Assembly (NCBI GenBank): GCA_003141555.1
Contig: PLMN01000005.1
Coordinates: 124,001 to 188,000, forward strand
From: Candidatus Aminicenantota bacterium
GTDB taxonomy: Bacteria; Acidobacteriota; Aminicenantia; Aminicenantales; UBA4085
Length of the DNA stretch: 64,000 nucleotides
Direction of reading: 5' to 3'
Within the stretch, counting starts at the first letter, position 1. Every line of letters begins with the position of its first letter. Below are positions 82 to 43,504 of the stretch, piece by piece. Both the position numbers and the translations under genes were made by a program. The notes beneath the pieces were generated by a model, which was not told where the DNA came from, made no database searches, and was given only the letters and a program-made list of their open reading frames with translations.

Positions 82-1719
82 TCACCTGACAAGCAGGGTG
101 AAGGGCGGGACATAGGCCTGGAGCAAAACGAGCAGTCCCATCAGGGAGGCTAGGGCCAGGCTGTGGAAGAAGACGTAGCGCAGGATCTCGCCCTCCCGGC
201 CGTACCATTTCGTGGCGGTGCTCGCCACGACGATGCTCTGGGCATCGATCATCTTGCCCATGACCCCGCCCGAGCTGTTGGCTGCGGCCATGAGCACGGG
301 GTCGAGGCCGAGCTGGCGGGCCGAGATCTGCTGCAGGCTCCCGAAAAGCACGTTCGAGGACGTATCCGAACCCGTAAGGGCGACGCCCAGCCAGCCGAGC
401 AGCGTCCCAAAGAACGGATAGAATACTCCCGTGCGGGAGAAGGCCAGCCCCAAGGTCGCGTCGAGGCCCGCGTACCGGCAAGTATAGCCGAGGGCCAACA
501 TGGCCGCCACCGTCAGAAGCGAGAACCGGACTTTTTTCACGGTCCTCAGCCAGACGGCCGCCGCTTCGCGCGGCCCGTACCTCAAAGCGGCCGCCGAGAT
601 CAGAGCCGCAAGGAGAATCCCCGTCCCGGTGAACGTCAGCCCATTGAACGTGAACACCGCCCCTTCCGCCGTCGGCCGGGGCACTACGGGAGGGACGCGG
701 AAGATCAGCTGATCGACGCCGGGGACCGGGATCCTCGCGATCCACACGCCATCGAGAAAAGCCTTGACCTGGGGAATGCCCCAGAGGAAGACCGTCAGGC
801 TGAGGATGAGCCAGGGCAGCCAGGCCTTGAAGACCTCGTTTCGGGAGTGGCTGCAATCGGCCCGCGTCCCGGCTTCGGCGCCGCCCTTCTCCGCGCCCCA
901 GATCCGGCGCGGCCGCCAGACATGGAGGAAGGCGACAAGGGCCCCGATCGAGGCGATCGACGACAGCACGCCGGCGAGCCAGGGGCCGTGAAAATTCGAA
1001 ACCAGGAACTGGACGATCCCGAACGAGACGCCGGCGACGAGAAGCGCGGGCCAGATCTCGAACATCGCCCCGAAGCCGGCGAACGCCGCCACGAGCCAGA
1101 AGGGTATGATCATGGAGAACAGCGAGAGCTGCCGCCCGACCATGGCGCTGAGCGCCCGGACGTCGAGTCCGGTGACCCCGGCCAGGGCGATGATCGGCGT
1201 GCCGAGGGCACCGAAGGCCACGGGCGCGGTGTTGGCGATGAGCGACAAGCCGGACGCCTGGAGAGGCCCGAACCCCAGACCGATCAGGATTGCCGCCGTC
1301 ACGGCGACCGGCGTGCCGAACCCGGCCGCGCCCTCGACGAACGCCCCGAATCCGAAGGCGATGAGCAGGAGCTGGAGGCGGCGGTCCCGGGTGATGCCCG
1401 TCAGGCTGTCGCGGAGCACGCGGAAGAGCCCCCGCCCGTCGGCCAGGTCGTAAAGGAAGATGACGTTGAGGATGATCCAGCCGATGGGGAACAGGCCGTA
1501 GGCCCCTCCATAAGCCGCCACGGTCAAGGCTTTGCCGACGGGCATGCCGAAGCCCAGGATGGCGATCGCAAGGGCGGAGAAAAGTCCCAGGGCCGCCGCC
1601 CGATGGGCTTTGAGCTTCAGGAAGGCGAGCGTCCCGAGCAGGACGAAAACCGGGATGGCCGCGAGGGCCGTGGACAAAAGCCAGCTGCCCGTCGGGTCAT
1701 AGGCCTGGCTCCAGGTCAT
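82..1719 (-). CDS. lctP: L-lactate permease (LctP/LldP family)
   Basis: A 545-residue integral membrane protein of the lactate permease family, which carries L-lactate or glycolate across the inner membrane with protons. About a dozen hydrophobic helices are visible. The family-typical segments rich in G, A and F (EGAAGFGTPVA near residue 130, TGSDTSSNVLFG near 450, SGGVMGKMIDAQS near 480) are all present, and the length fits the family. The start is the ATG at 1719, preceded by a GC-rich stretch inside the previous gene; longer in-frame readings add a non-hydrophobic tail that overlaps the upstream gene. It overlaps the upstream membrane-protein gene by 4 nt (ATGA), so translation is probably coupled. 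No lactate dehydrogenase lies nearby. Substrate specificity is inferred from family only. Confidence 0.9.
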   Translation of the reverse strand: MTWSQAYDPTGSWLLSTALAAIPVFVLLGTLAFLKLKAHRAAALGLFSALAIAILGFGMPVGKALTVAAYGGAYGLFPIGWIILNVIFLYDLADGRGLFRVLRDSLTGITRDRRLQLLLIAFGFGAFVEGAAGFGTPVAVTAAILIGLGFGPLQASGLSLIANTAPVAFGALGTPIIALAGVTGLDVRALSAMVGRQLSLFSMIIPFWLVAAFAGFGAMFEIWPALLVAGVSFGIVQFLVSNFHGPWLAGVLSSIASIGALVAFLHVWRPRRIWGAEKGGAEAGTRADCSHSRNEVFKAWLPWLILSLTVFLWGIPQVKAFLDGVWIARIPVPGVDQLIFRVPPVVPRPTAEGAVFTFNGLTFTGTGILLAALISAAALRYGPREAAAVWLRTVKKVRFSLLTVAAMLALGYTCRYAGLDATLGLAFSRTGVFYPFFGTLLGWLGVALTGSDTSSNVLFGSLQQISARQLGLDPVLMAAANSSGGVMGKMIDAQSIVVASTATKWYGREGEILRYVFFHSLALASLMGLLVLLQAYVPPFTLLVR

Positions 1720-5636: not shown

Positions 5637-7034
5637 CTAGCCGACCAGCTCGTGTTCGATCTGTTCGAGCGACTTGCCCTTGGTCTCCGGCAGCCGGGCC
5701 TTGATGAAGACGAATCCCAGGACACAGATCGCCGCGTAAAGCCAGAACGTCCCCGACGCCTTCAGGGCGTGGTTCAGCAGGGGGAAGGTGTAGGTCAGGA
5801 CGAAGCAAGCCGCCCAGAGCGAGAAGGTGGCGACCGACATCGCCGCGCCGCGGATTCGGTTGGGGAAAATCTCGGCCAGGACCACCCAGGTGACGGGCGC
5901 GAGCGACATGCCGTAGCAGCCGATGGCGCTGACGACCAGCACGAGAAGCGGCAGCCCCTGGAGCTTCAAGAAGAACGACAGCCCCATCAGAGTGAAGATC
6001 CCGCCCAATCCCCCGGCGCCGATCAGCATCAGCGGCTTGCGGCCGATGCGATCGACCGTGGAAATGGCCACGAAGGTGAAGACGAGGTTGACGCTCCCCG
6101 TGATCACGATGTTGAACAGGATGTCGCTCACGCCGTAGCCGGCTATAGTGAAGATCTCCTGGGCGTAGTTGAAAATGACGTTGATGCCGCACCACTGCTG
6201 GAACGCGGCCAGGACGATGCCGAGCGTCAGTACGCGAGAGAGGCCGGGTCGAAGGAGATCGCGGAAGCCGGAACGCTCGGTTTCGCGGGCCAGCGTCTCG
6301 CGGATGGCGACCAGCTCCCCGTCGGCATAGGCCCCGCCGCCGACGCGGGCGAGGACGGCCCGGGCGCGCGCCTCGCGGCCGCGCTTGATCAGCCAGCGCG
6401 GGCTCTCCGGCGCGAACAGCATGAACAGGAAGAAGGCCGCCGCCGGGACGGCGCACGCCCAGAACATCCAGCGCCAGCCGGTCTGCCCGTTCCAGGAAGC
6501 CAGGATCTCGGCGCCCGTCGCGCCCTTGGGAACGGGCCGGGCGACCAGCCAGTTGACGACCTGGGCGGCCAGGATGCCGATGACGATGGTCAGCTGGTTG
6601 AGGGCGACGAACCGGCCGCGGACGCGGGCCGGCGTCACTTCGGCGATGTACATGGGCGAGAGGTTGGAGGCCAGGCCGATTCCCACGCCCCCCAGCATCC
6701 GGAGCAGGACGAAAGCGGTGAACGAGCCGGCGGCGCCCGTCCCGAGCGAGCCGGCGACGAACAGGCCGGCCGAGAGAAGGAGGAGATTCTTGCGGCCGAA
6801 GCGATCGCTCAAGCCGCCCGAGAGAAGGGCCCCGGCGATGCACCCGATCAGGGCGCAGCTCATGGCCCAGCCCTGGAGCGCCGGGACGCCGGCGATATTG
6901 AAAAACTGCTCATAGAACGGCTTCGCCCCGCCGATTACCACCCAATCATAGCCGAACAGCAGCCCGCCGAAGGCGGACGCGAGGGAGATAGCGAACACGT
7001 AGCCCCTGTTGTATTCGAGATGATCCGCGCGCAT
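5637..7034 (-). CDS. Sugar porter, MFS superfamily (XylE/GLUT type)
   Basis: 465 residues, twelve hydrophobic helices, inner membrane. The sugar-porter signatures are present: LLFGYDWVVIGG in helix 1, GGLSDRFGRK in the loop between helices 2 and 3, PESPRWL in the central loop, DRIGRKPL, and PETKGKSLEQIE at the C terminus. It should take up a monosaccharide by proton symport or facilitated diffusion; the sugar cannot be read from sequence. Start: a strong promoter (TTGACA, 17 bp, TATGAT) ends 7 nt before the ATG at 7034 and overlaps the in-frame ATG at 7046. The mRNA would therefore begin at 7034 without a leader, and no Shine-Dalgarno is seen. Divergent from the toxin-antitoxin pair. Confidence 0.88.
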   Translation of the reverse strand: MRADHLEYNRGYVFAISLASAFGGLLFGYDWVVIGGAKPFYEQFFNIAGVPALQGWAMSCALIGCIAGALLSGGLSDRFGRKNLLLLSAGLFVAGSLGTGAAGSFTAFVLLRMLGGVGIGLASNLSPMYIAEVTPARVRGRFVALNQLTIVIGILAAQVVNWLVARPVPKGATGAEILASWNGQTGWRWMFWACAVPAAAFFLFMLFAPESPRWLIKRGREARARAVLARVGGGAYADGELVAIRETLARETERSGFRDLLRPGLSRVLTLGIVLAAFQQWCGINVIFNYAQEIFTIAGYGVSDILFNIVITGSVNLVFTFVAISTVDRIGRKPLMLIGAGGLGGIFTLMGLSFFLKLQGLPLLVLVVSAIGCYGMSLAPVTWVVLAEIFPNRIRGAAMSVATFSLWAACFVLTYTFPLLNHALKASGTFWLYAAICVLGFVFIKARLPETKGKSLEQIEHELVG

Positions 7035-7041
7035 GGCCGGA

Positions 7042-7070
7042 ATCATATCGGCGGGCGGGAGGGCTGTCAA
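7042..7070 (-). promoter_or_regulatory. Strong promoter of the sugar porter, probably giving a leaderless mRNA
   Basis: On the minus strand: TTGACA (7070-7065), 17-bp spacer, TATGAT (7047-7042). The initiation codon at 7034-7032 begins 7 nt after the -10 box, where transcription would be expected to start. Confidence 0.65.
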
Positions 7071-7077
7071 TGGCGTC

Positions 7078-7106
7078 TTGACGTTATAGCGTTTTGACGT
7101 TATATT
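7078..7106 (+). promoter_or_regulatory. Promoter and tandem operator of the toxin-antitoxin pair
   Basis: TTGACG (7078-7083), 17-bp spacer, TATATT (7101-7106). An 11-bp direct repeat TTGACGTTATA occurs at 7078-7088 and 7094-7104, 16 bp apart, covering both the -35 box and the -10 box. This is a natural binding site for the ribbon-helix-helix antitoxin (autorepression). The start codon at 7113 lies 6 nt after the -10 box, so the mRNA is probably leaderless. Confidence 0.6.
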
Positions 7107-7112
7107 GCCTCC

Positions 7113-7358
7113 ATGGATACCGTTATGAAGAATCCCCATAAGCGGATCACTGTCTATCTCAAACCGGAATTTCATCGGGCGCTCAAGGTCAAGGCGGCAG
7201 AGACGGAATACTCTGTCTCCGACCTGGTGAACGCCGCAGTGAAGAACGCCCTGCTTGAAGACGCCATTGATCTCGAGGCCTTCGAAAAGCGGGCCGGCGA
7301 ACCGCTGCTTGATTTCGAAGCCGTCGTGAAGACTCTCAAGCACGATGGCAAGCTATAA
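7113..7358 (+). CDS. Ribbon-helix-helix antitoxin
   Basis: 81 residues. The N-terminal half fits a CopG/MetJ-type ribbon-helix-helix DNA-binding fold: a beta strand (KRITVYLKPEFHRALK, about residues 10-25) and two helices (EYSVSDLVNAAVKNAL). The acidic C-terminal half would wrap and neutralise the toxin encoded by the next gene, with which it overlaps by 14 nt. No Shine-Dalgarno precedes the ATG at 7113, and the promoter's -10 box ends only 6 nt before it, consistent with leaderless initiation; the in-frame ATG at 7125 is an alternative. The tandem operator upstream is the likely autoregulatory site. Confidence 0.8.
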   Translation: MDTVMKNPHKRITVYLKPEFHRALKVKAAETEYSVSDLVNAAVKNALLEDAIDLEAFEKRAGEPLLDFEAVVKTLKHDGKL

Positions 7359-7605
7359 GGTCCTGATCCGAAAGAGCGCGGCCGTCGAGCTCGGCCGGAT
7401 CCCCAAAAGAGACCTGGCCAAGATCATAGAACGGATAAGAGCGCTTTCCGCGCAGCCCCGACCTCATGGGGTCGAAAAACTATCCGGCCAGGAACGTTAT
7501 CGAATCCGGCAGGGCGATTATCGGATCATCTTCGCCATCGATGACGCCGAGCAGAGAGTTGAAATATTCAAAATCGGCCACCGGAGCGAAATTTATCGCG
7601 TCTGA
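7345..7605 (+). CDS. RelE/ParE-family toxin
   Basis: 86 residues with the RelE/ParE fold signature: N-terminal strand (YKVLIRKSAAVELGRIPK), two helices, then LSGQERYRIRQGDYRIIFAID and a final strand ending in KIGHRSEIY. Conserved R residues in the YRIRQGDYRI segment and the H/R pair in IGHRSEIY match mRNA-cleaving RelE relatives, so an mRNA interferase is more likely than a gyrase poison. This remains inference. It overlaps the antitoxin gene by 14 nt, the usual coupling that keeps the antitoxin in excess. Confidence 0.8.
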   Translation: MASYKVLIRKSAAVELGRIPKRDLAKIIERIRALSAQPRPHGVEKLSGQERYRIRQGDYRIIFAIDDAEQRVEIFKIGHRSEIYRV

Positions 7606-7662
7606 GCAGCGTTCTCTCCTTTCCCACGTCCGGCTCCGCCCTGACACCGCCCTTACGCCGCC

Positions 7663-34792: not shown

Positions 34793-35212
34793 TCAATCCA
34801 GGACGATCGCCGACGATATCCGGACCCCGCTCTTGAGCATGGCCCAGACGGGACAATATTTCTCCTCCGTCAGCCGGACGGCTTTCCGAATTTTTTCAAG
34901 GTCAAGGGATTCGCCCGCGACCCGGAACTCGAGGCGGATGGAGGTGAAGACCTGGGGATGCTCGTCCCGCCTCTCTCCCGAGGCCGCGACCGAGAAAGAA
35001 CGGACGCCTTGCTTCATCTTAACCAGAAGAGACATGACGGTCTGGCCGCTGCAGGCGCAGAGGCTCATGAGGGCCAGCTCCATGGGCGAGTGGCCCTCCC
35101 CTTCTCCGAGGGGCGGAGCGTGGTCGATCGGGACTTCCCGGACATACGATGTCGCGCCTTCGAAGTGGAGCATCCGGCTCCATCGGACCGAAGCGAAGAG
35201 CGGCTCATTCAT
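34793..35212 (-). CDS. OsmC/Ohr-family peroxidase-like protein
   Basis: 139 residues. OsmC fold with the two redox cysteines in place: the first in SLCACSGQTV (about residue 51-54) and the second in EEKYCPVWAML (about 119). Such proteins reduce organic hydroperoxides with dithiols such as lipoyl groups. The sequence is nearer to the general OsmC-like (YhfA-type) branch than to Ohr, judged by eye. AAAGGAAT precedes the ATG. It stands alone, 118 bp from the CHR gene and 89 bp from the end of the lysine operon side. Confidence 0.85.
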   Translation of the reverse strand: MNEPLFASVRWSRMLHFEGATSYVREVPIDHAPPLGEGEGHSPMELALMSLCACSGQTVMSLLVKMKQGVRSFSVAASGERRDEHPQVFTSIRLEFRVAGESLDLEKIRKAVRLTEEKYCPVWAMLKSGVRISSAIVLD

Positions 35213-35301
35213 GTCCGATTCCTTTCCCCGGCTTGACGGCGCCGGTCCGTCACAGACTTGGAGTTTATATCAACCGGACGGAAAGGGTCAATTTCGGCGG
35301 A

Positions 35302-35967
35302 TCAGATCGTAACCACGGCGCCCTGAGGGACGGGCGCGAAGTCGAAGGAGGCGAGCGGCTCGGACGCGATCATCTTCAGGCCGGCGGATTCGTGGCGATG
35401 GAGCTGGTAGTAGGTCCCGCCGTCCTCGAACCGGCACAAGGCGCAGCAATTCTTCCCGTCGGACACCCCGACGTTCAAGCCCTGGAGACGGCGCGCGTTC
35501 CTTTCGAGGAAACCGGCCGTTGCGGCGACCGCCTCCGCGGGCCCGGACGCGGCTAGGCGCTCCGAGAGGAGGGCCCAGATCTTCTGGGCGCCGATATCCC
35601 CCGGTACGGGATACGGCAGCGAGACGCCCTGGAGGAGGCCGTTAAAGACGAAAGCGAAGGGGCCGGAGATATACGGCTGGTTATAGGACAGGGTCGCTTT
35701 CTGCCAGGGGAAGGAGGCGCTCCGGGCATGGAGGATGAGGATCGGGCTCGGAGGAATCCTGCCGAAGGCGGCCCGATCCTCCCAGACCGGATCGGTCGAT
35801 CTGAGGAGCTGCCAGACCCCGCCTCCATCCAACCAGGCCGCTCCCCAGCCATCCGCCTGGCGGTCGCCGTCGGGCGCGCGGCTCGCCTCGGCCATGACGG
35901 CGAAATCCTCGAGAAGCGCGGCCGAGGCCGCCGGCGCCGCCCATTTGGCCATCAGGAAGCGGCACAT
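35302..35967 (-). CDS. Class II (Ntn-type) glutamine amidotransferase-like protein, YafJ/EgtC/Dug3 family; candidate LysW-lysine releasing enzyme
   Basis: 221 residues. Begins Met-Cys, so removal of Met exposes the Cys2 nucleophile of Ntn hydrolases. Other family marks: DGWG (39-42), HAR (80-82), Asn96 in YNQPY, FNG (108-110, oxyanion region) and SEPL near 200. There is no synthase domain, so it acts as a stand-alone hydrolase of gamma-glutamyl amide bonds, as EgtC and Dug3 do. It overlaps lysJ by 16 nt and is the last gene of the lysW operon. The product held on LysW is a gamma-glutamyl amide of lysine, and LysK is not encoded here; replacement of LysK is my inference. A housekeeping repair or glutaminase role is the alternative. 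Confidence 0.8.
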   Translation of the reverse strand: MCRFLMAKWAAPAASAALLEDFAVMAEASRAPDGDRQADGWGAAWLDGGGVWQLLRSTDPVWEDRAAFGRIPPSPILILHARSASFPWQKATLSYNQPYISGPFAFVFNGLLQGVSLPYPVPGDIGAQKIWALLSERLAASGPAEAVAATAGFLERNARRLQGLNVGVSDGKNCCALCRFEDGGTYYQLHRHESAGLKMIASEPLASFDFAPVPQGAVVTI

Positions 35968-37148
35968 GGCGGGGGGCTTCCGGCGGACAGCCCGGACAGG
36001 ATTCCGGCCAGCTTCGCCAGGGCGTCGTCGATGTGGCTTTCCCGGATGACATAGGGGGGGAGAAACCGGACGACATTCTCCGCGGCCGGGATGGCCAGGA
36101 TTTTTTCGTCCTGGAGCTTCTTAAGGATGTCGTCGCGCCGCGATCGGACTTCGACCCCGATCATCAGCCCCCGGCCGCGGACGGCCGCGATTTCCCCGCT
36201 CCCGATCGCCTCCAGCCCGGCCATGAAATAGGCCCCGACCTTCCGTACGTGGTCCGCCATCGGCTCGTCGAGGAGATCGAGCGCCGCGAGGACCCCGGCG
36301 GCGGCCAGGGGATTCCCCCCGAAGGTCGACGTGTGCGAGGAGCGGGGAATCCGCTCGCCGACGTCCCGGGAAACGAGCGTCGCCCCGAAGGGGATCCCGC
36401 CGGCCAGCCCCTTGCCCAGGGTCAGGATGTCGTAAGCGATTCCCTCGGACTCCGAAGCCAGGAAAGGTCCCGTCCGCCCGGCGCCTGTCTGAACCTCGTC
36501 GACGAGGAGCAGCGCGCCGCGCGCCCGGCAGATCTCCGAGGCGAGCTTCAGGTATCCCGTTTCCGGGACGATGATGCCGCCTTCGCCGAGGATGGGCTCG
36601 ACGATGAAGCCCGCGGTCGCGTCGTCGACGGCCGCCTCGAGCGCGCCGATATCGCCGTAGGGCACGAAGACGACGTCCCAGATCAGCGGCTCGAACGCTT
36701 CCCGGAATTTCCGGCCGTCGGTCGCGGACAGCGCGCCGAGCGTCTTGCCGTGATATCCGCGGCGGCAGGCGACGAACCTCCTCCGCCCGGTCGCCAGCAC
36801 GGCGAATTTCAGGGCGGCTTCGTTCGCCTCCGACCCCGAGTTCGAAAAAAAGACCCGGGCCAGGCCGCCCCCGCAGCGGACCGTGAGGCGGCGGGCCGCC
36901 TCGGCCCGCCGGTCGTTGGCGAAGCTGCCGTGGAGCGTCGTCAGCGTCCGGACCTGGTCGGTCAGCCGTTCCACGACCGCCGGATGGCCGTGCCCGAAAA
37001 TGGCTACCCCGTAGTTCGACATCAGGTCGAGATACGCGGCGCCCGTCGCGTCCTTGAGATGGACGCCCTCCCCCGCGATGAACGTCAGTCCCCGGTTCAC
37101 ATACGTACCGACCAGGTATTTCTTCTGGAGAATCGAATAATCCACCAT
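35952..37148 (-). CDS. lysJ: [LysW]-aminoadipate semialdehyde aminotransferase LysJ
   Basis: 398 residues, class III PLP aminotransferase of the ArgD/LysJ type: GSEANEAALKFA (about 110), RRGYHGKTLGALSAT (about 135), LLLVDEVQTGAGRTG (about 215), the PLP Lys in ILTLGKGLAGGIP (about 250) and HTSTFGGNPLAAA. In the LysW pathway it transfers amino groups from glutamate to the LysW-bound semialdehyde, giving LysW-lysine. The family includes ArgD, but neighbours LysW, LysX, LysY and LysZ decide the role. It starts 7 nt after lysZ and its end overlaps the amidotransferase-like gene by 16 nt. Confidence 0.9.
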   Translation of the reverse strand: MVDYSILQKKYLVGTYVNRGLTFIAGEGVHLKDATGAAYLDLMSNYGVAIFGHGHPAVVERLTDQVRTLTTLHGSFANDRRAEAARRLTVRCGGGLARVFFSNSGSEANEAALKFAVLATGRRRFVACRRGYHGKTLGALSATDGRKFREAFEPLIWDVVFVPYGDIGALEAAVDDATAGFIVEPILGEGGIIVPETGYLKLASEICRARGALLLVDEVQTGAGRTGPFLASESEGIAYDILTLGKGLAGGIPFGATLVSRDVGERIPRSSHTSTFGGNPLAAAGVLAALDLLDEPMADHVRKVGAYFMAGLEAIGSGEIAAVRGRGLMIGVEVRSRRDDILKKLQDEKILAIPAAENVVRFLPPYVIRESHIDDALAKLAGILSGLSAGSPPPCAAS

Positions 37149-37155
37149 GGCCGTC

Positions 37156-37956
37156 TCAGCCGAAGACCGTCCCGTTCCCCGCCAAGGCGCTCCGCACGGG
37201 ATGGTCGATCCGCCCGTCGCCGAAGTAAACCGTTTCCACGCCTGCGTCGAGCGCCTTGCGGACGCCCATGATCTTTTTCTTCATCCGGCCGCGGGCGAAC
37301 GGCAGAACGGCCTCGATCCCGTCCCGCCCGACGCGGGCGATCCTCGTATCCTCGTGGCCGGGGTCACGAAGGAGCCCCGGAGCCTCGAAGAGATATACCA
37401 TCCGGGTGATGCCGAGAGCGCCGGCCATGACCGCCGCCGCGAGATCGTTGTCCGTATTGACGATCTCGCCCTCGGCGCTGATGGCCGGGGCGCAGAGGAC
37501 CGGGACGTAGCCGTTGTCGATCAGCAACCGGAGAAGGCCCGTGTTCACTCTCTCGACCCGCCCGGTCAGGTTGTCCCGGAGCAGCTTGGTCTTCCCGTTC
37601 TCGACGACCGGGATGTCCTTCTTGGGCACGGCTTCCCAGAGCCGCCCGTCCACGCCGCAGAGCCCCACGGCCGGAACCCCGCCGCGGAGCAGCCCGGCCA
37701 CCAGCCGCTTGTTGGCCAGGCCGGCGTAAGCCATGAGGAAGACTTCGATCGCTTCGCGGTCGGTATAGACGCTCGTAACGCCCGACGGGGAGACGACGGT
37801 CCGGACGGGAACGTTCAGGCGGGCGGCGAGGTCGTCGCGGAGGGTCGAGGCGCCGTGGACGAGGACCACGGGCTCGGATGCCCGGATCTCGGCGATGTCG
37901 GCGCACACGCCCTCCCAGTTCAGGTCCCGGCCCCCGCCGGCTTTGACGAGGAGCAT
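37156..37956 (-). CDS. lysZ: [LysW]-aminoadipate kinase LysZ
   Basis: 266 residues, amino-acid kinase fold (ArgB/LysZ). It has the N-terminal MLLVKAGGG phosphate loop, VVLVHGAST, the central NKRLVAGLLRGG (LysZ-type rather than NAGK-type) and NTDNDLAAAVMAGAL, plus Lys in GRMKKKIMG. It phosphorylates the aminoadipate carried on LysW. Start 3 nt after the stop of the homocitrate synthase gene. The sequence signature NKRL-VAGLLRGG matches known LysZ proteins better than free N-acetylglutamate kinases, as judged by eye. Confidence 0.9.
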   Translation of the reverse strand: MLLVKAGGGRDLNWEGVCADIAEIRASEPVVLVHGASTLRDDLAARLNVPVRTVVSPSGVTSVYTDREAIEVFLMAYAGLANKRLVAGLLRGGVPAVGLCGVDGRLWEAVPKKDIPVVENGKTKLLRDNLTGRVERVNTGLLRLLIDNGYVPVLCAPAISAEGEIVNTDNDLAAAVMAGALGITRMVYLFEAPGLLRDPGHEDTRIARVGRDGIEAVLPFARGRMKKKIMGVRKALDAGVETVYFGDGRIDHPVRSALAGNGTVFG

Positions 37957-37959
37957 GGC

Positions 37960-39000
37960 TCAGCCGTACTTTTCCTGGAACTTCTCGACGTCGAGAAGGC
38001 GGGTCTTGCCCGAGAGGAGCGTGTCGATGACGAGCGAGCGCCGGTTGCCGATGAGGTCGGGCGGCAGGAGCTCGTATTTCCCCGGCCCGAACTTCATCAG
38101 GGCGTCCAGATGGATGCCCGCCTTGTGGGCGAAGCCGTTGGCCGTGTTGGTCATGAGGTTCGGGGGCATCTCGATGCCGCACACCCGGGCGACGTAGTTC
38201 TCGGCTTCGGTCAGCCGGCCGAGATCGTAGCGGCGGGCGATGCCGGGATCGAGGACGTAGAGGTTGACGAGGAGCGAGCTCGTAGGCGTGATCCCCGTCC
38301 GCTCGCCGATCCCGAGGAGCGAAGTGCTGATGTAGCCCGCCCCGGCTTCGAGGGCGGCGAAGGCGTTGCTCACGGCATGGCCCAGGTCGTTGTGGAAGTG
38401 GACCTCGAGGGGCAGGGTCACCGTCCGGCGCAGCCGCTTGATCCGGCGGCCGACCTCCCAGCTCATGGCCCGGCCCAGCGTATCGGCCAGGGCGAGGCGG
38501 TCCGCGCCGGACTCGGCGGCCAGGCGGTAGATCTCCAGGCTCTCCGCCCGGGGCTGCTTGAAGAAATCCTCGACGCCCACGCGCACTTCGAGCCCACGGG
38601 CCTTGGCCAGGACCACGTTCTTCCGGAGGGCGGCCCGGTAATCCCCGGTCGTCTTGCCCATGGCCTTCACCCGCTCGGCGTCGACCGTGCAGAGGATGTT
38701 GACCCCGTCGACGCCGCTCTCGATCGCCGCCCGGACGTCGATCTCGTGGTTGCGGATGTGGGCCAGGACCCGGGTCCGGCCCCGGCCGCGCGCCGCCACG
38801 AGGGCCGCGACCATGCCCCGGATCTCGGGCCGGACCGGGTTGGCGACCTCGACGTACTCCACTCCGATCCCGGCCAGGAAATGGAAGATCTCGACCTGCT
38901 CCGCGGGCGAGAAGTTCGCCCGCGAAAACTGGAAGCCCTCGCGGAGCGTCGAATCGATCACCCCCGCGAAGCTGCTCAGGATCCGTTTCTGTTCGTTCAT
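37960..39000 (-). CDS. lysS: Homocitrate synthase (LeuA/HCS family)
   Basis: 346 residues, HMGL-type TIM barrel: DSTLREGFQF (about 15-24), catalytic metal motif VHFHND (HxH, about 195) and GERTGITP, plus the GFAHKAGIHLDAL segment. It lacks the C-terminal leucine-binding domain of isopropylmalate synthase (about 510 residues), and its place between lysY and lysZ points to homocitrate synthase, the first step of the aminoadipate route (2-oxoglutarate plus acetyl-CoA). Isopropylmalate or citramalate synthase activity cannot be excluded from sequence. AAGGGC stands just before the ATG at 39000. Homoaconitase and homoisocitrate dehydrogenase genes are not in this window. Confidence 0.82.
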   Translation of the reverse strand: MNEQKRILSSFAGVIDSTLREGFQFSRANFSPAEQVEIFHFLAGIGVEYVEVANPVRPEIRGMVAALVAARGRGRTRVLAHIRNHEIDVRAAIESGVDGVNILCTVDAERVKAMGKTTGDYRAALRKNVVLAKARGLEVRVGVEDFFKQPRAESLEIYRLAAESGADRLALADTLGRAMSWEVGRRIKRLRRTVTLPLEVHFHNDLGHAVSNAFAALEAGAGYISTSLLGIGERTGITPTSSLLVNLYVLDPGIARRYDLGRLTEAENYVARVCGIEMPPNLMTNTANGFAHKAGIHLDALMKFGPGKYELLPPDLIGNRRSLVIDTLLSGKTRLLDVEKFQEKYG

Positions 39001-39016
39001 GGTGCCCTTATCAGAC

Positions 39017-40078
39017 TCAAACGGGATGCAGTCCGGGGAACTCCAGCCCAAGGGTCTCCGGAAAGCCGCACATGAGGTTCATGCACTGGACGGCGTTGCC
39101 GGCCGTCCCCTTGACCAGGTTGTCGATCGCGCCCAGGACGACCAACCGCCCGCCCCGGACATCTTTTTCGAACCCGATCTCGCAGAAATTCGTGCCCTGC
39201 AGGATCTTGGGCTCCGGGTAGCGGTAGAGGCCCTGCGACTGCTTGACGATCCGGACGAACGGCTTGCCCATGTATTCCCGGCGATAAGCCTGCCAGACGT
39301 CCTTCTCGCCGACCGCCGGGTCGTCGAGGAAGGCGTGGATCGTGACCAGGATGCCCCGAACCATCTCGATGGCCGTCGCCGAGATGTGGAGCGCGGGCTC
39401 GACCCCGGCGGCCGCGAGGGCCTGCCCGATCTCGGCGGCGTGGCGGTGGCCGGTCGGCTTGTAGGAGCGGACCGACCCCGCCCGCTCGGGATGATGGGAC
39501 GACTCCGAGGGCGCGCGCCCGGCCTGGGAGCTCCCCATCTTGGCGTCGATGATGACCGGCCCGGCCTTGATGAGCCCGGTCTTGACCAGGGGGTAGAGCG
39601 ACAGGATGGAGACGATGGCCTCGCAACCGGGCCCGGCCACGCGCGTCGCGGACCGGATCTCGTCGGCGTAGAGCTCGGGAACGCCGTAGACGAAAGTGCC
39701 CAGGAGGTCGGGCCGGGCGTGGTCCGTGCCGTACCAGGTCTTCCAGGCCTCCGGGGTCTTCAAGCGGAAATCGGCTCCCAGGTCGATGATCCGCGGGGAC
39801 CGGGCCAGCCAGCCGTCCATGCCCCGCATCGATTCGCCGTTCGGCAGCCCCAGGAAGAGGAGATCGCACGGCCCGACCTCGTCGGGCTTGACGAAGGCCA
39901 GGTCCGTCAGTCCGCGAAGGTTGGGATGGAGGAGGGACACGGGCAGCCCGGCGTGCCGTCGGCTCGTGACCTGCCGGACCCGGACGCGGGGATGGAGGAG
40001 GAGAATCCGGAGGAGCTCCCCCCCGGCGTAGCCCGAGCCGCCGACGATCGAGACCTGGAGCGCGTCCGCGGATCCCAC
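39017..40078 (-). CDS. lysY: [LysW]-aminoadipyl phosphate reductase LysY (ArgC-like)
   Basis: 353 residues, ArgC/LysY family: N-terminal NADP-binding VSIVGGSGYAGGELLR, catalytic Cys in VAGPGCEA (about residue 143), and the KMGSSQAGRAP, SYKPTGHRHAAEI and TNFCEIGF segments of the substrate domain. It reduces the LysW-bound aminoadipyl phosphate to the semialdehyde. The GTG at 40078 directly abuts the TAA of lysX (TAAGTG), so translation is coupled. ArgC and LysY are close relatives; the LysW, LysX and homocitrate synthase neighbours favour LysY. Confidence 0.9.
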   Translation of the reverse strand: MGSADALQVSIVGGSGYAGGELLRILLLHPRVRVRQVTSRRHAGLPVSLLHPNLRGLTDLAFVKPDEVGPCDLLFLGLPNGESMRGMDGWLARSPRIIDLGADFRLKTPEAWKTWYGTDHARPDLLGTFVYGVPELYADEIRSATRVAGPGCEAIVSILSLYPLVKTGLIKAGPVIIDAKMGSSQAGRAPSESSHHPERAGSVRSYKPTGHRHAAEIGQALAAAGVEPALHISATAIEMVRGILVTIHAFLDDPAVGEKDVWQAYRREYMGKPFVRIVKQSQGLYRYPEPKILQGTNFCEIGFEKDVRGGRLVVLGAIDNLVKGTAGNAVQCMNLMCGFPETLGLEFPGLHPV

Positions 40079-40930
40079 TTACGCCCGGCCCTTCGCCCGG
40101 GCCAGGGCGTAGTCCACGACGGCCCCGGCGATCGGATAGCCGGTCGGCATCTCCGAATTCCGGAATTCCATGGTGTGGTTGACCTCGTTGACCGTCAGGC
40201 CGTCGGGGGTTTCGAAGAGATCGACGGCCAGCAGCCCTTCGCCGACCGCGGCGGCCGCGCGGGCGCAGACGTCGCGGAGCTCCGCGGTCAGGGGATAGTT
40301 GCGCGCGGAGCCGCCCCGGGCCGTATTGGTGATCCAGTGGGCGGACTCGCGGGCGATGGCGCATCGCGTCTCGCGGCCGAAAACGAAGGCCCGGACGTCG
40401 CGCCCGGGCTTCCGGACGAACTCCTGGATGTAGAAGGCCTTCTGGGGGGGCGTGCCGAGGACGTCCTTGTGCTCGAGCACGGCTTCGAGGGCGTCGTCGT
40501 CGTTGATCTTGGCCAGCAGCCGGCCCCAGGAGCCAAGGGGCGGCTTGACGACGACCGGATAGCCGCCGAGCCGCGCCACGGCGGCCCGGGCCGGCTCCAG
40601 GCCGAAGGCCAGGGCGAATCGCGGCGTCGGCACCCCGGCCCGCTCGAGGAGGAGGGAGGTCTGGAACTTATCGCCGCACGCTCGGGCGACCGCGGCCGTG
40701 TTGATGACCGGCGCGCCGAGCGATTCGAGGAAGGCGATGAGGTAGTCGCCCTTGACGGTCGAGACCGAGCGCTCCAGAGCGACATCGAAGTCGAGCGGGA
40801 ACGAGCGCGGGTCCAGGACCTCCTCGCGGATGTCCCGGAGGCGAACCTCCACGCCCTTCGTCCGGGCCGCCTCGAGGAGGAGCTTCTCCTCCAGGCGGAC
40901 CGTGGAATGGAAGACGGCCAGAACGGTCAC
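40079..40930 (-). CDS. lysX: LysW-aminoadipate ligase LysX (ATP-grasp)
   Basis: 283 residues, RimK-like ATP-grasp ligase: VVVKPPLGSWGRLLAKIND (ATP-binding loop and Lys), FYIQEFVRKPGRDVRAFVFG and the Mg-binding VNEVNHTMEFRN near the C terminus. It joins the gamma-carboxyl of the C-terminal Glu of LysW to the alpha-amino group of aminoadipate. Start: GTG at 40930, which overlaps the lysW stop by 4 nt (GTGA), with GGGGAGA upstream. Whether it prefers aminoadipate (LysX) or glutamate (ArgX) is not settled by eye; the homocitrate synthase gene supports aminoadipate. Confidence 0.9.
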   Translation of the reverse strand: MTVLAVFHSTVRLEEKLLLEAARTKGVEVRLRDIREEVLDPRSFPLDFDVALERSVSTVKGDYLIAFLESLGAPVINTAAVARACGDKFQTSLLLERAGVPTPRFALAFGLEPARAAVARLGGYPVVVKPPLGSWGRLLAKINDDDALEAVLEHKDVLGTPPQKAFYIQEFVRKPGRDVRAFVFGRETRCAIARESAHWITNTARGGSARNYPLTAELRDVCARAAAAVGEGLLAVDLFETPDGLTVNEVNHTMEFRNSEMPTGYPIAGAVVDYALARAKGRA

Positions 40931-41127
40931 TCTCCCCAGTCTTCCTCGATCCGAGGGGCCTCGCTCAGGACAACGCGGCCGCCGGCCGTCCCGTCCACGA
41001 CCAGCATGGTCCGGCATTCGGGGCAGGGCAGGAGCTCGGACTCCTCCGGGCGCGCGGCGGGCACGACGTCCGCGGCGCACACCGGGCACGTCCCGCGGAC
41101 CAGGATTTCCGGCTGGGTCATCGACAT
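40927..41127 (-). CDS. lysW: Amino-group carrier protein LysW
   Basis: 66 residues, first gene of the operon. Zinc site from two CxxC pairs (Cys14, Cys17, Cys35, Cys38). The acidic tail ends in EDWGE, the conserved carrier end whose last Glu is loaded with the amino acid. Intermediates stay bound to this tiny protein while LysX, LysZ, LysY and LysJ act on them, which protects the amino group and stops cyclisation. AAGGAG stands 6 nt before the ATG at 41127; a longer in-frame reading to 41187 runs into the promoter leader. Overlaps lysX by 4 nt. Confidence 0.93.
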   Translation of the reverse strand: MSMTQPEILVRGTCPVCAADVVPAARPEESELLPCPECRTMLVVDGTAGGRVVLSEAPRIEEDWGE

Positions 41128-41192
41128 GATCGACTCCTTGCGAACAAATACTTCCGTCCCCCGGGGAGCGGCTCCGCGGGACGACACCGGGG

Positions 41193-41262
41193 ATTATAAG
41201 GAGCCGCGATCGCTCGTCAATTTTTTGCATATTATTTACATTTCAGAATATTATTGTATAAT
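41193..41262. promoter_or_regulatory. Back-to-back promoters of lysW operon and ACT-domain gene
   Basis: Minus strand: TTGACG (41220-41215), 16-bp spacer, TATAAT (41198-41193), driving lysW with a leader of about 60 nt that can fold (GC-rich dyads around 41160-41185). Plus strand: TTTACA (41235-41240), 16-bp spacer, TATAAT (41257-41262), driving the ACT-domain gene, whose ATG lies 8 nt later. The two -35 boxes are 14 bp apart. The octamer ATATTATT repeats at 41229-41236 and 41248-41255. One bound protein could control both directions. Confidence 0.65.
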
Positions 41263-41270
41263 TTTAAACA

Positions 41271-41920
41271 TGATCACCATTCCTGAAGCCGTGGAGGGGA
41301 TCGTCCGGGCGTCCCCGTTCCTCGACGAGGCGCTCGCCCTGGGGATCGTCAACCTCTCCGCCCTCGCCCGCCTCATCAAAGCCGACGTCGAGCGGGCGGC
41401 GATGAAGAAGGTCCAGGACGGGGCGGTCATCATCGCCCTCAACCGCCTTCGGCGCCGGGTCGGAAGCCGCGCCCGCAGGCAGCGGAGCGTGTTCAAGCGG
41501 GCCCCCGAGCTGACCGTCCGCTCGAACCTCGTGGAGCTGACCTACGCCAGCTCCGAGCGGATGTTCGCCCGGCGCAAGACCCTTCTCGAACGCCACGGCG
41601 GCCGGGCGAACGTCTTCCTGACCGTGACCCAGGGCATCCGCGAGACCACGATCGTCGCCGGCCGGGAGCTCCGCGAGCCGATCCAGGCGATCTTCAAGGG
41701 CGAGCGCCTGATCGACAAGATCGACGGCCTGTCGAGCGTCACGGTCCTCCTCCCCTCCGGGACGGCGGCCGTCCCCGGGGTCTATCACTACATCCTCAAA
41801 ACCCTGGCCTGGGAAGGGGTCAACATCGTCGAGGTCGTCTCCACGCTCAACGAGCTCACGATCGTCCTCTCCGACCGGGACATCGACCGGGCCTTCTCGC
41901 TCATCAAGCGCCTGTTCTGA
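41271..41920 (+). CDS. ACT-domain protein, candidate regulator of the lysW operon
   Basis: 216 residues. The N-terminal 60 residues look helical and could form a winged helix-like unit (PEAVEGIVRASPFLDEALAL, NLSALARLIKADVE). The C terminus (about 150-216) is an ACT domain: VTVLLPSGTAAVPGVYHYIL, WEGVNIVEVVSTLNELTIVLSDRDIDRAF. ACT domains commonly bind amino acids and regulate their synthesis. No catalytic motif of aspartate kinase or another enzyme is present. It stands divergently next to lysW with overlapping promoter space, so feedback regulation by lysine is plausible but unproven. No Shine-Dalgarno precedes the ATG at 41271; the -10 box ends 8 nt before it. Confidence 0.72.
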
Positions 41921-41994
41921 GCATGGAGATTCCGGGGACGGATTGCCGCCGGCCCGCCGAAGCGCTAGGATAAGACCCTGAGGGAGGACATCCG

Positions 41995-42819
41995 ATGAAG
42001 ATCCCGATCTACCAAGTCGACGCGTTCACCGACCACGTCTTCGGCGGCAATCCCGCCGCCGTCTGCCCGCTCCCCTCTTGGCTTCCGGACGACGTCCTGC
42101 AGTCGATCGCCATGGAAAACAACCTGGCCGAAACCGCCTACCTGGTCCGGGCGGGCGCCGGGATCGAGATCCGCTGGTTCACGCCGACCCTCGAAATCGA
42201 CCTCTGCGGCCACGCCACGCTGGCCTCGGCCCACGCGCTCTTCGAGCACCTCGGCCATCCCGGCGACAAAATCGTCTTCTCCTCGAAAAGCGGACCGCTG
42301 CGGGCGGCGCGGGGCGCCGGCGGCCTCATCACCCTTGATTTCCCGGCTTTCGAGCCGGAGCCGATCGCCACTCCCGAGGGCTTGGTCCGCGGGCTGGGAG
42401 CCAGGCCCCTCGAAACCCTGCGGGGCCGGGACATTCTGGCCGTCTTCGGCTCCGAAGCCGAGGTCGCCGCGCTCGATCCGGATTTCGCCGTCCTTCGAGC
42501 GCTCGACTGCCTCGGGGTCATCGCCACAGCGCCTTGCGCAGTCACGGCGGAGTCACAGCGGAGTAGGACGGCCCGGGGCGAGGCCTGCGATTTCGTCTCG
42601 CGCTTCTTCGCCCCTCGGGCGGGAATCCCCGAGGACCCGGTCACGGGCTCGTCCCACACGCTGCTCGTCCCCTTCTGGGCCCGGCGGCTGGGCCGGACCT
42701 CGCTTCACGCCGTGCAGATATCCAAGCGGCGCGGGGATCTGTACTGCGAGCTCAGGGACGGCCGCGTCCTCATGGGCGGAAAGGCGGTGACGTTCCTGCG
42801 GGGGGAAATCGACGTTTGA
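41995..42819 (+). CDS. PhzF-family isomerase
   Basis: 274 residues, close to the family's usual 260-300. Marks: YQVDAFTDHVFGGNPAAVC at the N terminus, MENNLAETAYL (with the catalytic Glu), RWFTPTLEIDLCGHATLA and DFVSRFFAPRAGIPEDPVTGSSH (the last two in shorter conserved pieces). PhzF enzymes do epimerase- or isomerase-type proton transfers; the substrate here is unknown. A 13-residue insert just before DFVSRFF is encoded by a direct 11-bp tandem duplication (42541-42551 and 42552-42562). GGAGGA precedes the ATG. Confidence 0.88.
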   Translation: MKIPIYQVDAFTDHVFGGNPAAVCPLPSWLPDDVLQSIAMENNLAETAYLVRAGAGIEIRWFTPTLEIDLCGHATLASAHALFEHLGHPGDKIVFSSKSGPLRAARGAGGLITLDFPAFEPEPIATPEGLVRGLGARPLETLRGRDILAVFGSEAEVAALDPDFAVLRALDCLGVIATAPCAVTAESQRSRTARGEACDFVSRFFAPRAGIPEDPVTGSSHTLLVPFWARRLGRTSLHAVQISKRRGDLYCELRDGRVLMGGKAVTFLRGEIDV

Positions 42820-42838
42820 AGAACGCGGCGAAAAGCGC

Positions 42839-43504
42839 TCAGGCCGTGACGATGTTCTCGATCTCGACCGCGGAATCCACCAGGTACGTGGGGTTCTTCG
42901 CCCGGAGCACGTCCCGGCGGTGGAAGCCCCAGGTGACGGCGATGACCGCGATGCCGGCGCGCTGGCAGGCCTCGATATCGCGCGTCTCGTCGCCGATATA
43001 GATCACCCCGTCCTCGCGGAGCCCACGCTTCTGGAGGAGATGCTGCAGGGCCCGGGTCTTGCCGAAGAAATTCGATTCGGCATGGATGAAATCGAAGACG
43101 TCGAGGTCCCGGGCCCGGAGGAGCTTTTGGACGTTCTCCCGCGAATTCGAGGTCAGGATGCCCAGGCCGAACGACCGGCGCTTCAAGCTGAGGATGAGAT
43201 CCCGGATGCCGGGAAAGAGCTCGACCTGGTCGATGCGCTGGAGGAGCTCTTTCTGGGTGCGAAGGATGAGCGTCGGGAGCTTGACGAAGGGGATGTGGTA
43301 CTTCTTGAGGATTTCGATGTTCGACATGCCCCGCAGGTTTTCGACGTCTTTTTCCCCCAGGGGAGTAACATGGTATTCTCGGGCATGTCCGTTGGCAATC
43401 CTGATGATGGCCGAGAGCGTATCGGCCAGCGTGCCGTCGAAATCGAAGATCAATGTCGGAGAAACGGGCGCGGCCGAAGCTACCGAAGCCGGATTGGTCG
43501 ACAT
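42839..43504 (-). CDS. HAD-superfamily phosphatase (phosphoglycolate phosphatase-like)
   Basis: 221 residues. HAD motif I DFDGTLADT (about 20-28) with both nucleophile and acid Asp, motif II TSNS in GLGILTSNSRE, Lys in FGKTRALQHLL and motif IV IGDETRDIEA. The helical cap follows motif I (about 33-95), as in phosphoglycolate phosphatase (Gph) and PpaX. The substrate is uncertain. The start at 43504 gives a short Ser/Ala/Pro-rich lead before motif I; no strong ribosome site is seen. Convergent with the PhzF gene. Confidence 0.85.
   Translation of the reverse strand: MSTNPASVASAAPVSPTLIFDFDGTLADTLSAIIRIANGHAREYHVTPLGEKDVENLRGMSNIEILKKYHIPFVKLPTLILRTQKELLQRIDQVELFPGIRDLILSLKRRSFGLGILTSNSRENVQKLLRARDLDVFDFIHAESNFFGKTRALQHLLQKRGLREDGVIYIGDETRDIEACQRAGIAVIAVTWGFHRRDVLRAKNPTYLVDSAVEIENIVTA

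Follow-up and report, generated by a model that had tools for sequence, protein, structure and literature searches.

Regulators of the Lrp/AsnC family carry an AsnC-type winged helix followed by a single C-terminal RAM domain, which is ACT-like, and one of them, LysM of Sulfolobus, controls a LysW-type lysine operon. ArgP and LysG are LysR-type, lysine-responsive regulators of lysine genes or lysine export. The end product of the lysine pathway is also sensed by lysine-sensitive aspartate kinases. In other bacteria, lysine genes are controlled by the lysine riboswitch, according to PMC5584792 (the 'lysW' of that text is a transporter, not the carrier protein).

Here we describe a gene that faces away from a lysW operon in a 64,000-nucleotide stretch of DNA from a Candidatus Aminicenantota bacterium, which we call the window. 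Judging from sequence, its product, termed the regulator below, is very probably the transcription factor of a lysine regulon, with inferred binding of DNA and lysine. The basis is computed: the pairing of genes, a conserved site, a regulon link to unlinked lysA and lysC and a predicted ACT fold. Among the literature matches listed, which were mainly open-access and included PMC9026213 and PMC5584792, there was no description of the regulator. Nor did the matches listed name any transcription factor that controls lysine synthesis in bacteria of these groups.

The locus and the architecture of the regulator

The features of the locus are collected in Table 1. The ATG at 41270 is the start common to the homologues; the program-listed ORF begins further upstream. 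Across 139 bp, lysW heads a minus-strand run of lysX, an argC/lysY-type reductase, a homocitrate synthase-type gene, lysZ and a lysJ-type aminotransferase, which by its family matches is the predicted LysW form of the alpha-aminoadipate pathway. On the other side, a PhzF-family gene (41995-42819, +) follows the regulator on the same strand and is possibly co-transcribed with it; the arrangement is the same in L002, with the PhzF-family gene at 549-1430 (-).

Table 1. Coordinates of the features in the window
Feature	Position	Strand	Evidence
Regulator gene	41270..41920, stop included	+	216 aa, in-frame reading; full-length homologues
N-terminal helical domain, residues 1-77, proposed DNA-binding part	41270..41500	+	AlphaFold2, charge count, weak DUF7523 match
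Tandem ACT domains, residues 78-216, proposed amino-acid sensor	41501..41917	+	Model and matches to aspartate kinase regulatory domains
Proposed operator, palindrome-like core GTATAATTTTAAAC at 41256-41269	41253..41271	+	Family site matrix
Regulator promoter	41235..41262	+	-35 TTTACA 41235-41240, 16 nt, -10 TATAAT 41257-41262; 11/12 consensus matches
lysW operon promoter	41193..41220	-	-35 TTGACG 41220-41215, 16 nt, -10 TATAAT 41198-41193; 11/12 consensus matches
lysW, amino-group carrier protein of the alpha-aminoadipate lysine pathway	40927..41130	-	PF21344 27.9 bits, cut-off 27; NF041070 E 2.9e-10, below its cut-off
lysX, LysW ligase	40079..40930	-	TIGR02144 289 bits, above cut-off
lysY/argC-type reductase	39017..40078	-	TIGR01850 371 bits, above cut-off
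Homocitrate synthase-type gene, start codon uncertain	37960..39051	-	TIGR02146 254 bits, below equivalog cut-off 413.55
lysZ, LysW-aminoadipate kinase	37156..37956	-	NF010659 290 bits, above cut-off
lysJ-type aminotransferase	35952..37148	-	NF042418 351 bits, NF002874 370 bits, both below cut-offs

The earlier note had placed two divergent promoters back to back in the shared region, with their -35 boxes 14 bp apart. This was borne out by a sigma-70-like consensus scan of 41000-42100, which found three sites compared to 0.1 expected in shuffles, and the spacing recurs in relatives. In an alignment with four relatives, the regulator promoter is kept; of the lysW promoter, the -35 region is kept, the -10 less so. 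The arrangement TCAA-N14-TT(G/T)AC was found upstream of 7 out of 18 relatives in the Acidobacteriota-type group (L035 included; 0.04 in shuffles) and of 5 out of 19 in the Patescibacteria group (0.11 in shuffles). When all spacings from 8 to 21 were scanned, only spacing 15 matched besides 14, and it did so once; in 20 Bacteroidota upstream regions the pair was absent at every one of these spacings. The -10 of the plus-strand promoter ends 7 nt before the regulator ATG, so that the regulator mRNA may be leaderless. A search for a lysine riboswitch at 35000-43000 of the window gave no match, the sole hit being a sub-threshold snoRNA model.

The octamer ATATTATT at 41229 and 41248, which the earlier note had put forward as a binding site, is found twice in the window against 0.08 expected. 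Its second copy is not kept in the four aligned relatives, and it was discarded as operator for this reason.

The AlphaFold2 model of the full-length protein (six-sequence alignment, pLDDT 83.2) displays four N-terminal helices (residues 4-14, 18-23, 29-44 and 50-64) followed by two beta-alpha-beta-beta-alpha units (residues 80-141 and 147-215). The C-terminal part matches aspartate kinase regulatory domains with a Foldseek E value of 8.9e-9 and, in one comparison (VIA), a Z score of 14.8 and an rmsd of 2.6 A over 135 residues. Weak sequence support comes from an aspartokinase chain (E 3.4e-5 with the single sequence, 0.0022 with a profile), and aspartate kinase profiles match only residues 113-216, weakly and far below cut-off. 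In the model, the C-terminus is thus a tandem ACT module of the aspartokinase type, predicted to be packed like the regulatory domains of aspartate kinases. The ACT domain without an enzyme motif that had been read from the sequence alone is therefore confirmed, except that it is actually a tandem pair: the Pfam search found no enzyme domain in the regulator and, in this protein of 216 aa, no kinase family that would indicate an amino-acid kinase catalytic domain.

The N-terminal domain again gave four helices when it was modelled alone (AlphaFold2, pLDDT 87.6). Its second part is strongly basic, with 12 K/R and a single D/E among residues 46-77. Foldseek with this domain alone returned no match at E below 1. 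The best-scoring weak structure match was the DNA-binding domain of ColE2 Rep (3vw4, Z 4.0), and structure and profile searches yielded no convincing match to DNA-binding folds. A winged helix, which the earlier note had considered for its possible DNA-binding N-terminus, is not supported by these searches, and both AlphaFold2 models give only helices in this part; the predicted fold has no convincing DNA-binding counterpart. Among the invariant positions of a ten-sequence alignment are N28, S30, A33, R34, K46, R59, R84, S85 and N86 as well as W181, E188, S191, E195 and T197.

A palindrome upstream of regulator genes

A conserved motif in the intergenic regions of orthologous loci, as the earlier note had envisaged, does exist. 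GTTA-N6-TAAC was found upstream of regulator homologues in 26 of 57 loci, compared to 0.23 expected. (The 57 loci derive from at least 73 by collapsing those with identical first 60 residues to one and dropping L011; for L001 and L006, the start positions were assigned manually.) No other 4-nt gapped palindrome is as strongly enriched, and in 100 shuffles the commonest palindrome of any kind reached 12. The next-ranked palindromes, TGTT-N8 and AACA-N3, are parts of the same half-sites.

When the 64-kb window was scanned with the family matrix, 41253-41271 scored best (15.1, with the next independent hit at 2.6). A matrix trained without the window clade (L001-L006) still ranked this site first (14.3 vs 1.8). 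The core in this clade is a GTATA-type variant with three mismatches from the family palindrome, and it was absent from the training sets. The site is kept in the four relatives, and the -10 of the regulator promoter lies inside it.

This position raises the question of whether the palindrome is merely a strong promoter joined to a leaderless start codon, without regulatory meaning. It does contain the -10 and often abuts the ATG (with a relaxed pattern, in 9 of 18 loci of the Acidobacteriota-type group, 6 of 19 of the Patescibacteria group and 2 of 20 from Bacteroidota). However, the TAAC on its right side does not belong to a -10. At other loci the site is separated from the start codon by at least 20 nt, and it precedes unlinked lysA by about 100 nt. 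The enrichment over expectation given above is also large. We regard this explanation as highly improbable.

On the scale of whole genomes, the exact pattern TGTTANATNNNTAAC stands out little, with 43 matches in 16 genomes compared to 37 when the pattern is reversed as a control, and many of the 30 matches that were inspected, namely those with loci, lie inside genes. The sole match is the one at the regulator gene in G043, G589, G663 and G760 and one away from it in G322 and G324; G338, G729 and G639 have no match to this pattern. The clade-site pattern has one exact match per genome at the regulator gene, in 4 of 4 genomes, but it was built from these sites and is no independent test. Allowing one mismatch, it is found at ten places in the window's own genome, nine of them outside the window. 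One operator near-match elsewhere in this genome (G000:C17:241328-241343) is itself palindromic.

Gene neighbourhood, predicted regulon and distribution

A lysine gene was found divergent from the regulator, within 1.6 kb upstream, in 34 of 67 loci. These loci are counted one per gene copy (L068 and L080 both come from G589), and five strong matches without loci (G327, G374, G382, G503 and G354) are not among them. The divergent partners belong to the LysW pathway (lysW plus lysX in 4 loci, lysW plus homocitrate synthase in 9, lysW alone in 1, homocitrate synthase alone in 5) or are lysC (7), dapA (4), dapA plus dapB (1), lysA (1) and lysO (2). Pfam confirms DapA and DapB in L092 and the LysO exporter in L095 (PF03956, E 9e-53). 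In none of the 67 loci does a lysine gene of the searched families lie upstream on the regulator's own strand; in two, such a gene lies downstream in convergent orientation (lysA-like in L069, lysX in L079). The divergent order thus persists while the pathway and the enzyme change, from the LysW pathway to the diaminopimelate pathway and the exporter LysO.

Several loci deviate in detail. In two Patescibacteria-group genomes, the exporter LysO is encoded in two parts by a pair of neighbouring genes that face away from the regulator (L095 5693-6645, L096 2018-2904). In G332, G327, G374, G382 and G479, a frame of 904-915 aa with a lysA match lies beside the regulator on the opposite strand; in L062 and L063 (G332, G479) it also has an aspartate kinase match, so that it apparently encodes a fused aspartate kinase-diaminopimelate decarboxylase. 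L019 (G120) has lysW and homocitrate synthase beside the regulator, yet its genome gave no LysX match at E 1e-15, and in L023-L025 no lysW was detected between the regulator and a divergent homocitrate synthase gene. Of the two regulator copies in G589 (L068 and L080), one is divergent from lysC and the other from a homocitrate synthase-type gene. In L093, the regulator (6927-7643) is near genes that by eye resemble those for agmatinase and deoxyhypusine synthase, hinting at a link to polyamine metabolism, and adjoins a convergent gene that matches lysA weakly (E 1.5e-7; the L069 entry above).

The remaining 33 of the 67 loci have none of the searched lysine genes divergent upstream, and in 16 of them a YraN-like gene, recognised by eye, precedes the regulator in the same orientation. 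The earlier note had named orthologues outside a lysine-gene context as a refutation of its reading, and in terms of neighbourhood the 33 loci are literally such a case; however, in 15 of the 16 genomes with the YraN arrangement, the unlinked lysA scores above the 99th percentile of the controls with a first matrix. Overall, this matrix placed 19 of 26 lysA upstream regions of regulator-bearing genomes above the 99th percentile of 117 controls.

A second matrix was trained on 30 sites from outside Bacteroidota and tested on Bacteroidota. With it, 15 of 25 lysA regions of regulator-bearing genomes were above the 99th percentile of 174 controls and 20 above the 95th; ten thus fall below the 99th. 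In genomes without the regulator, the corresponding numbers were 0 and 1 of 16. The test genomes are often related to each other and the regulator-less ones mostly more distant, so that p values overstate independence. The regulator-less set consisted of 19 genomes, taken from the early rows of a list of 207, of which 16 had a lysA match. Among the 34 genomes with both a regulator and a lysA match, 26 were scored with the first matrix and 25 with the second; the counts do not include G338, G332, G479, G327, G374 and G382. The second test also left out the lysA of G550 (L133), which is near the regulator, and that of L087, which had been the highest control for the first matrix. In G354 and G503, which have a distant homologue, an earlier matrix found no site at lysA (0 of 2). 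Threonine-branch genes of AK-HSD size were rejected as regulon members, since 0 of 20 were above the 99th percentile and 2 of 20 above the 95th; these genes are also among the controls.

Further sites were found at lysC. The unlinked monofunctional lysC of G550 has one about 100 nt upstream (scores 19.4 and 18.9), and the lysC of G331, a genome without the regulator, has none. In G427, where the regulator and lysC are a divergent pair, the unlinked lysA has a second site in its upstream region. A shared operator at lysine genes away from the regulator's own locus was thus observed in Bacteroidota, at the lysA genes and at the lysC of G550.

These data bear on a different role for the protein. 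It could be a stand-alone ACT subunit that does not bind DNA and adjusts a lysine enzyme by protein contact, the palindrome belonging to another factor that controls both genes. This would agree with an N-terminal domain lacking a recognised DNA-binding fold and with an ACT module that is that of an enzyme. However, the partner gene varies among unrelated enzymes and an exporter, which fits no one enzyme as partner. The regulator gene itself shows strong enrichment of the palindrome, and none of the 16 regulator-less genomes examined has a strong lysA site. We therefore consider an ACT subunit to be rather improbable; more probably, the palindrome would be bound by the regulator protein itself.

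Relatives of the regulator are present in at least three phyla, the number covered by the genome searches (phylum names for the individual genomes are inferred). The protein was found in 5 of 39 close relatives, in 13 of 297 genomes of the window's own phylum, in 40 of 247 genomes of the phylum of L009 (Flavobacteriales) and in 16 of 192 genomes of the phylum of L007 (Daviesbacteria). Of the 40, 35 are near-whole-length matches, and in 5 a long frame matches with its ACT part only. Among the 39 close relatives, LysX is present in precisely the 5 that have the regulator (p 1.7e-6). In the sample of 297 genomes, LysX is found in 34, of which 7 are shared with the regulator (p 1.5e-4) and 27 lack it; 6 of the 13 regulator-bearing genomes have no LysX match at 1e-40. 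The regulator is therefore at best one of several solutions in the LysX-bearing genomes of its phylum.

Proposed mechanism and comparison with known systems

We think it likely that the regulator is a lysine-sensing one-component factor that binds the palindrome as a dimer and represses both itself and the lysW operon. Its basic N-terminal helical domain would bind half-sites of the type TGTTA/TAACA, in the window clade as the GTATA-type variant over its own -10 and start region (41253-41271). The tandem ACT module would sense the end product, most likely lysine, as suggested by the genes controlled and by the aspartokinase type of the module. The lysine-bound regulator would then repress its own promoter; acting from the region that the two promoters share, it would also repress the operon from lysW through lysX, lysY, homocitrate synthase and lysZ to lysJ. 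Autorepression is probable because the site covers the regulator's own -10 and start. The earlier proposal of a regulator that controls both itself and the lysine operon is thus well supported by the divergent pairing, the palindrome at its own promoter and the site at unlinked lysA and lysC; the octamer is the part that did not hold.

The effect on the target genes is probably repression. Relative to the expected lysW start, the proposed operator is at about -76, an awkward position for a simple repressor of lysW. Control of lysW would require one of three things: binding along weaker half-sites in the stretch that separates the -35 boxes, promoters that compete with each other, or activation. 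In the last case, the factor would bind near -76 of lysW without lysine, recruit RNA polymerase and block its own promoter, like ArgP and other LysR-type regulators. Such an activator would agree with a site that overlies the -10 of the regulator gene and is upstream of the -35 of lysW, and autorepressing activators in divergent arrangement are common. However, several Bacteroidota palindromes lie, as judged by eye, next to or over TATATTTG-like promoter elements (the consensus of the Bacteroidota element is TAnnTTTG), suggesting occlusion. We consider activation unlikely and favor the repressor.

More broadly, the regulator may represent an undescribed family of transcription factors, in which a DNA-binding domain of a new type is combined with a recycled aspartokinase sensor. 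In Acidobacteriota, Bacteroidota and Patescibacteria, such a family would switch two unrelated lysine pathways as well as the export of lysine, with regulator and operator kept while the controlled pathway was exchanged; we see the arguments for this wider view as evenly balanced. If it is a single family with a readable operator, much of the lysine regulon in these bacteria could be predicted from sequence. Such a regulator, retained as the enzymes under its control are exchanged, would also bear on how regulatory networks outlive the replacement of pathways.

Several known systems resemble the regulator in part. Like Lrp/AsnC proteins, it would be a small one-component regulator with an ACT-like sensor, but it has two ACT units of the aspartokinase type and four predicted helices without a wing; Pfam, with search filters that drop most weak matches, gave no AsnC or winged-helix match. 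With ArgP and LysG it would share the lysine-responsive control of lysine genes or export. Pfam found neither a LysR-type winged helix nor a substrate-binding domain, and the C-terminal two thirds are the tandem ACT module. Unlike in systems with a lysine riboswitch, control in the window is proposed to act via a protein, in keeping with the riboswitch search above. The domain of unknown function DUF7523 (PF24367) weakly matches residues 11-44, and 5 of 10 regulator members match it with E values up to 0.01, but with 22.4 bits, and 19.6 bits when genomes were searched, the regulator itself stays under the cut-off of 27; DUF7523 was found in one of 14 control genomes, that of Haloferax volcanii. 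The closest likeness in structure is to the aspartate kinase regulatory domain, with which the regulator shares the tandem ACT fold (Z 14.8). In contrast to aspartate kinases, it has a 77-residue N-terminal helical domain in place of the kinase domain, and the identity is 8-18% in the matches listed. What seems new here, going by the literature matches listed, is a probable ACT-sensor one-component amino-acid regulator in which the sensor is joined to an N-terminal domain of unrecognised fold.
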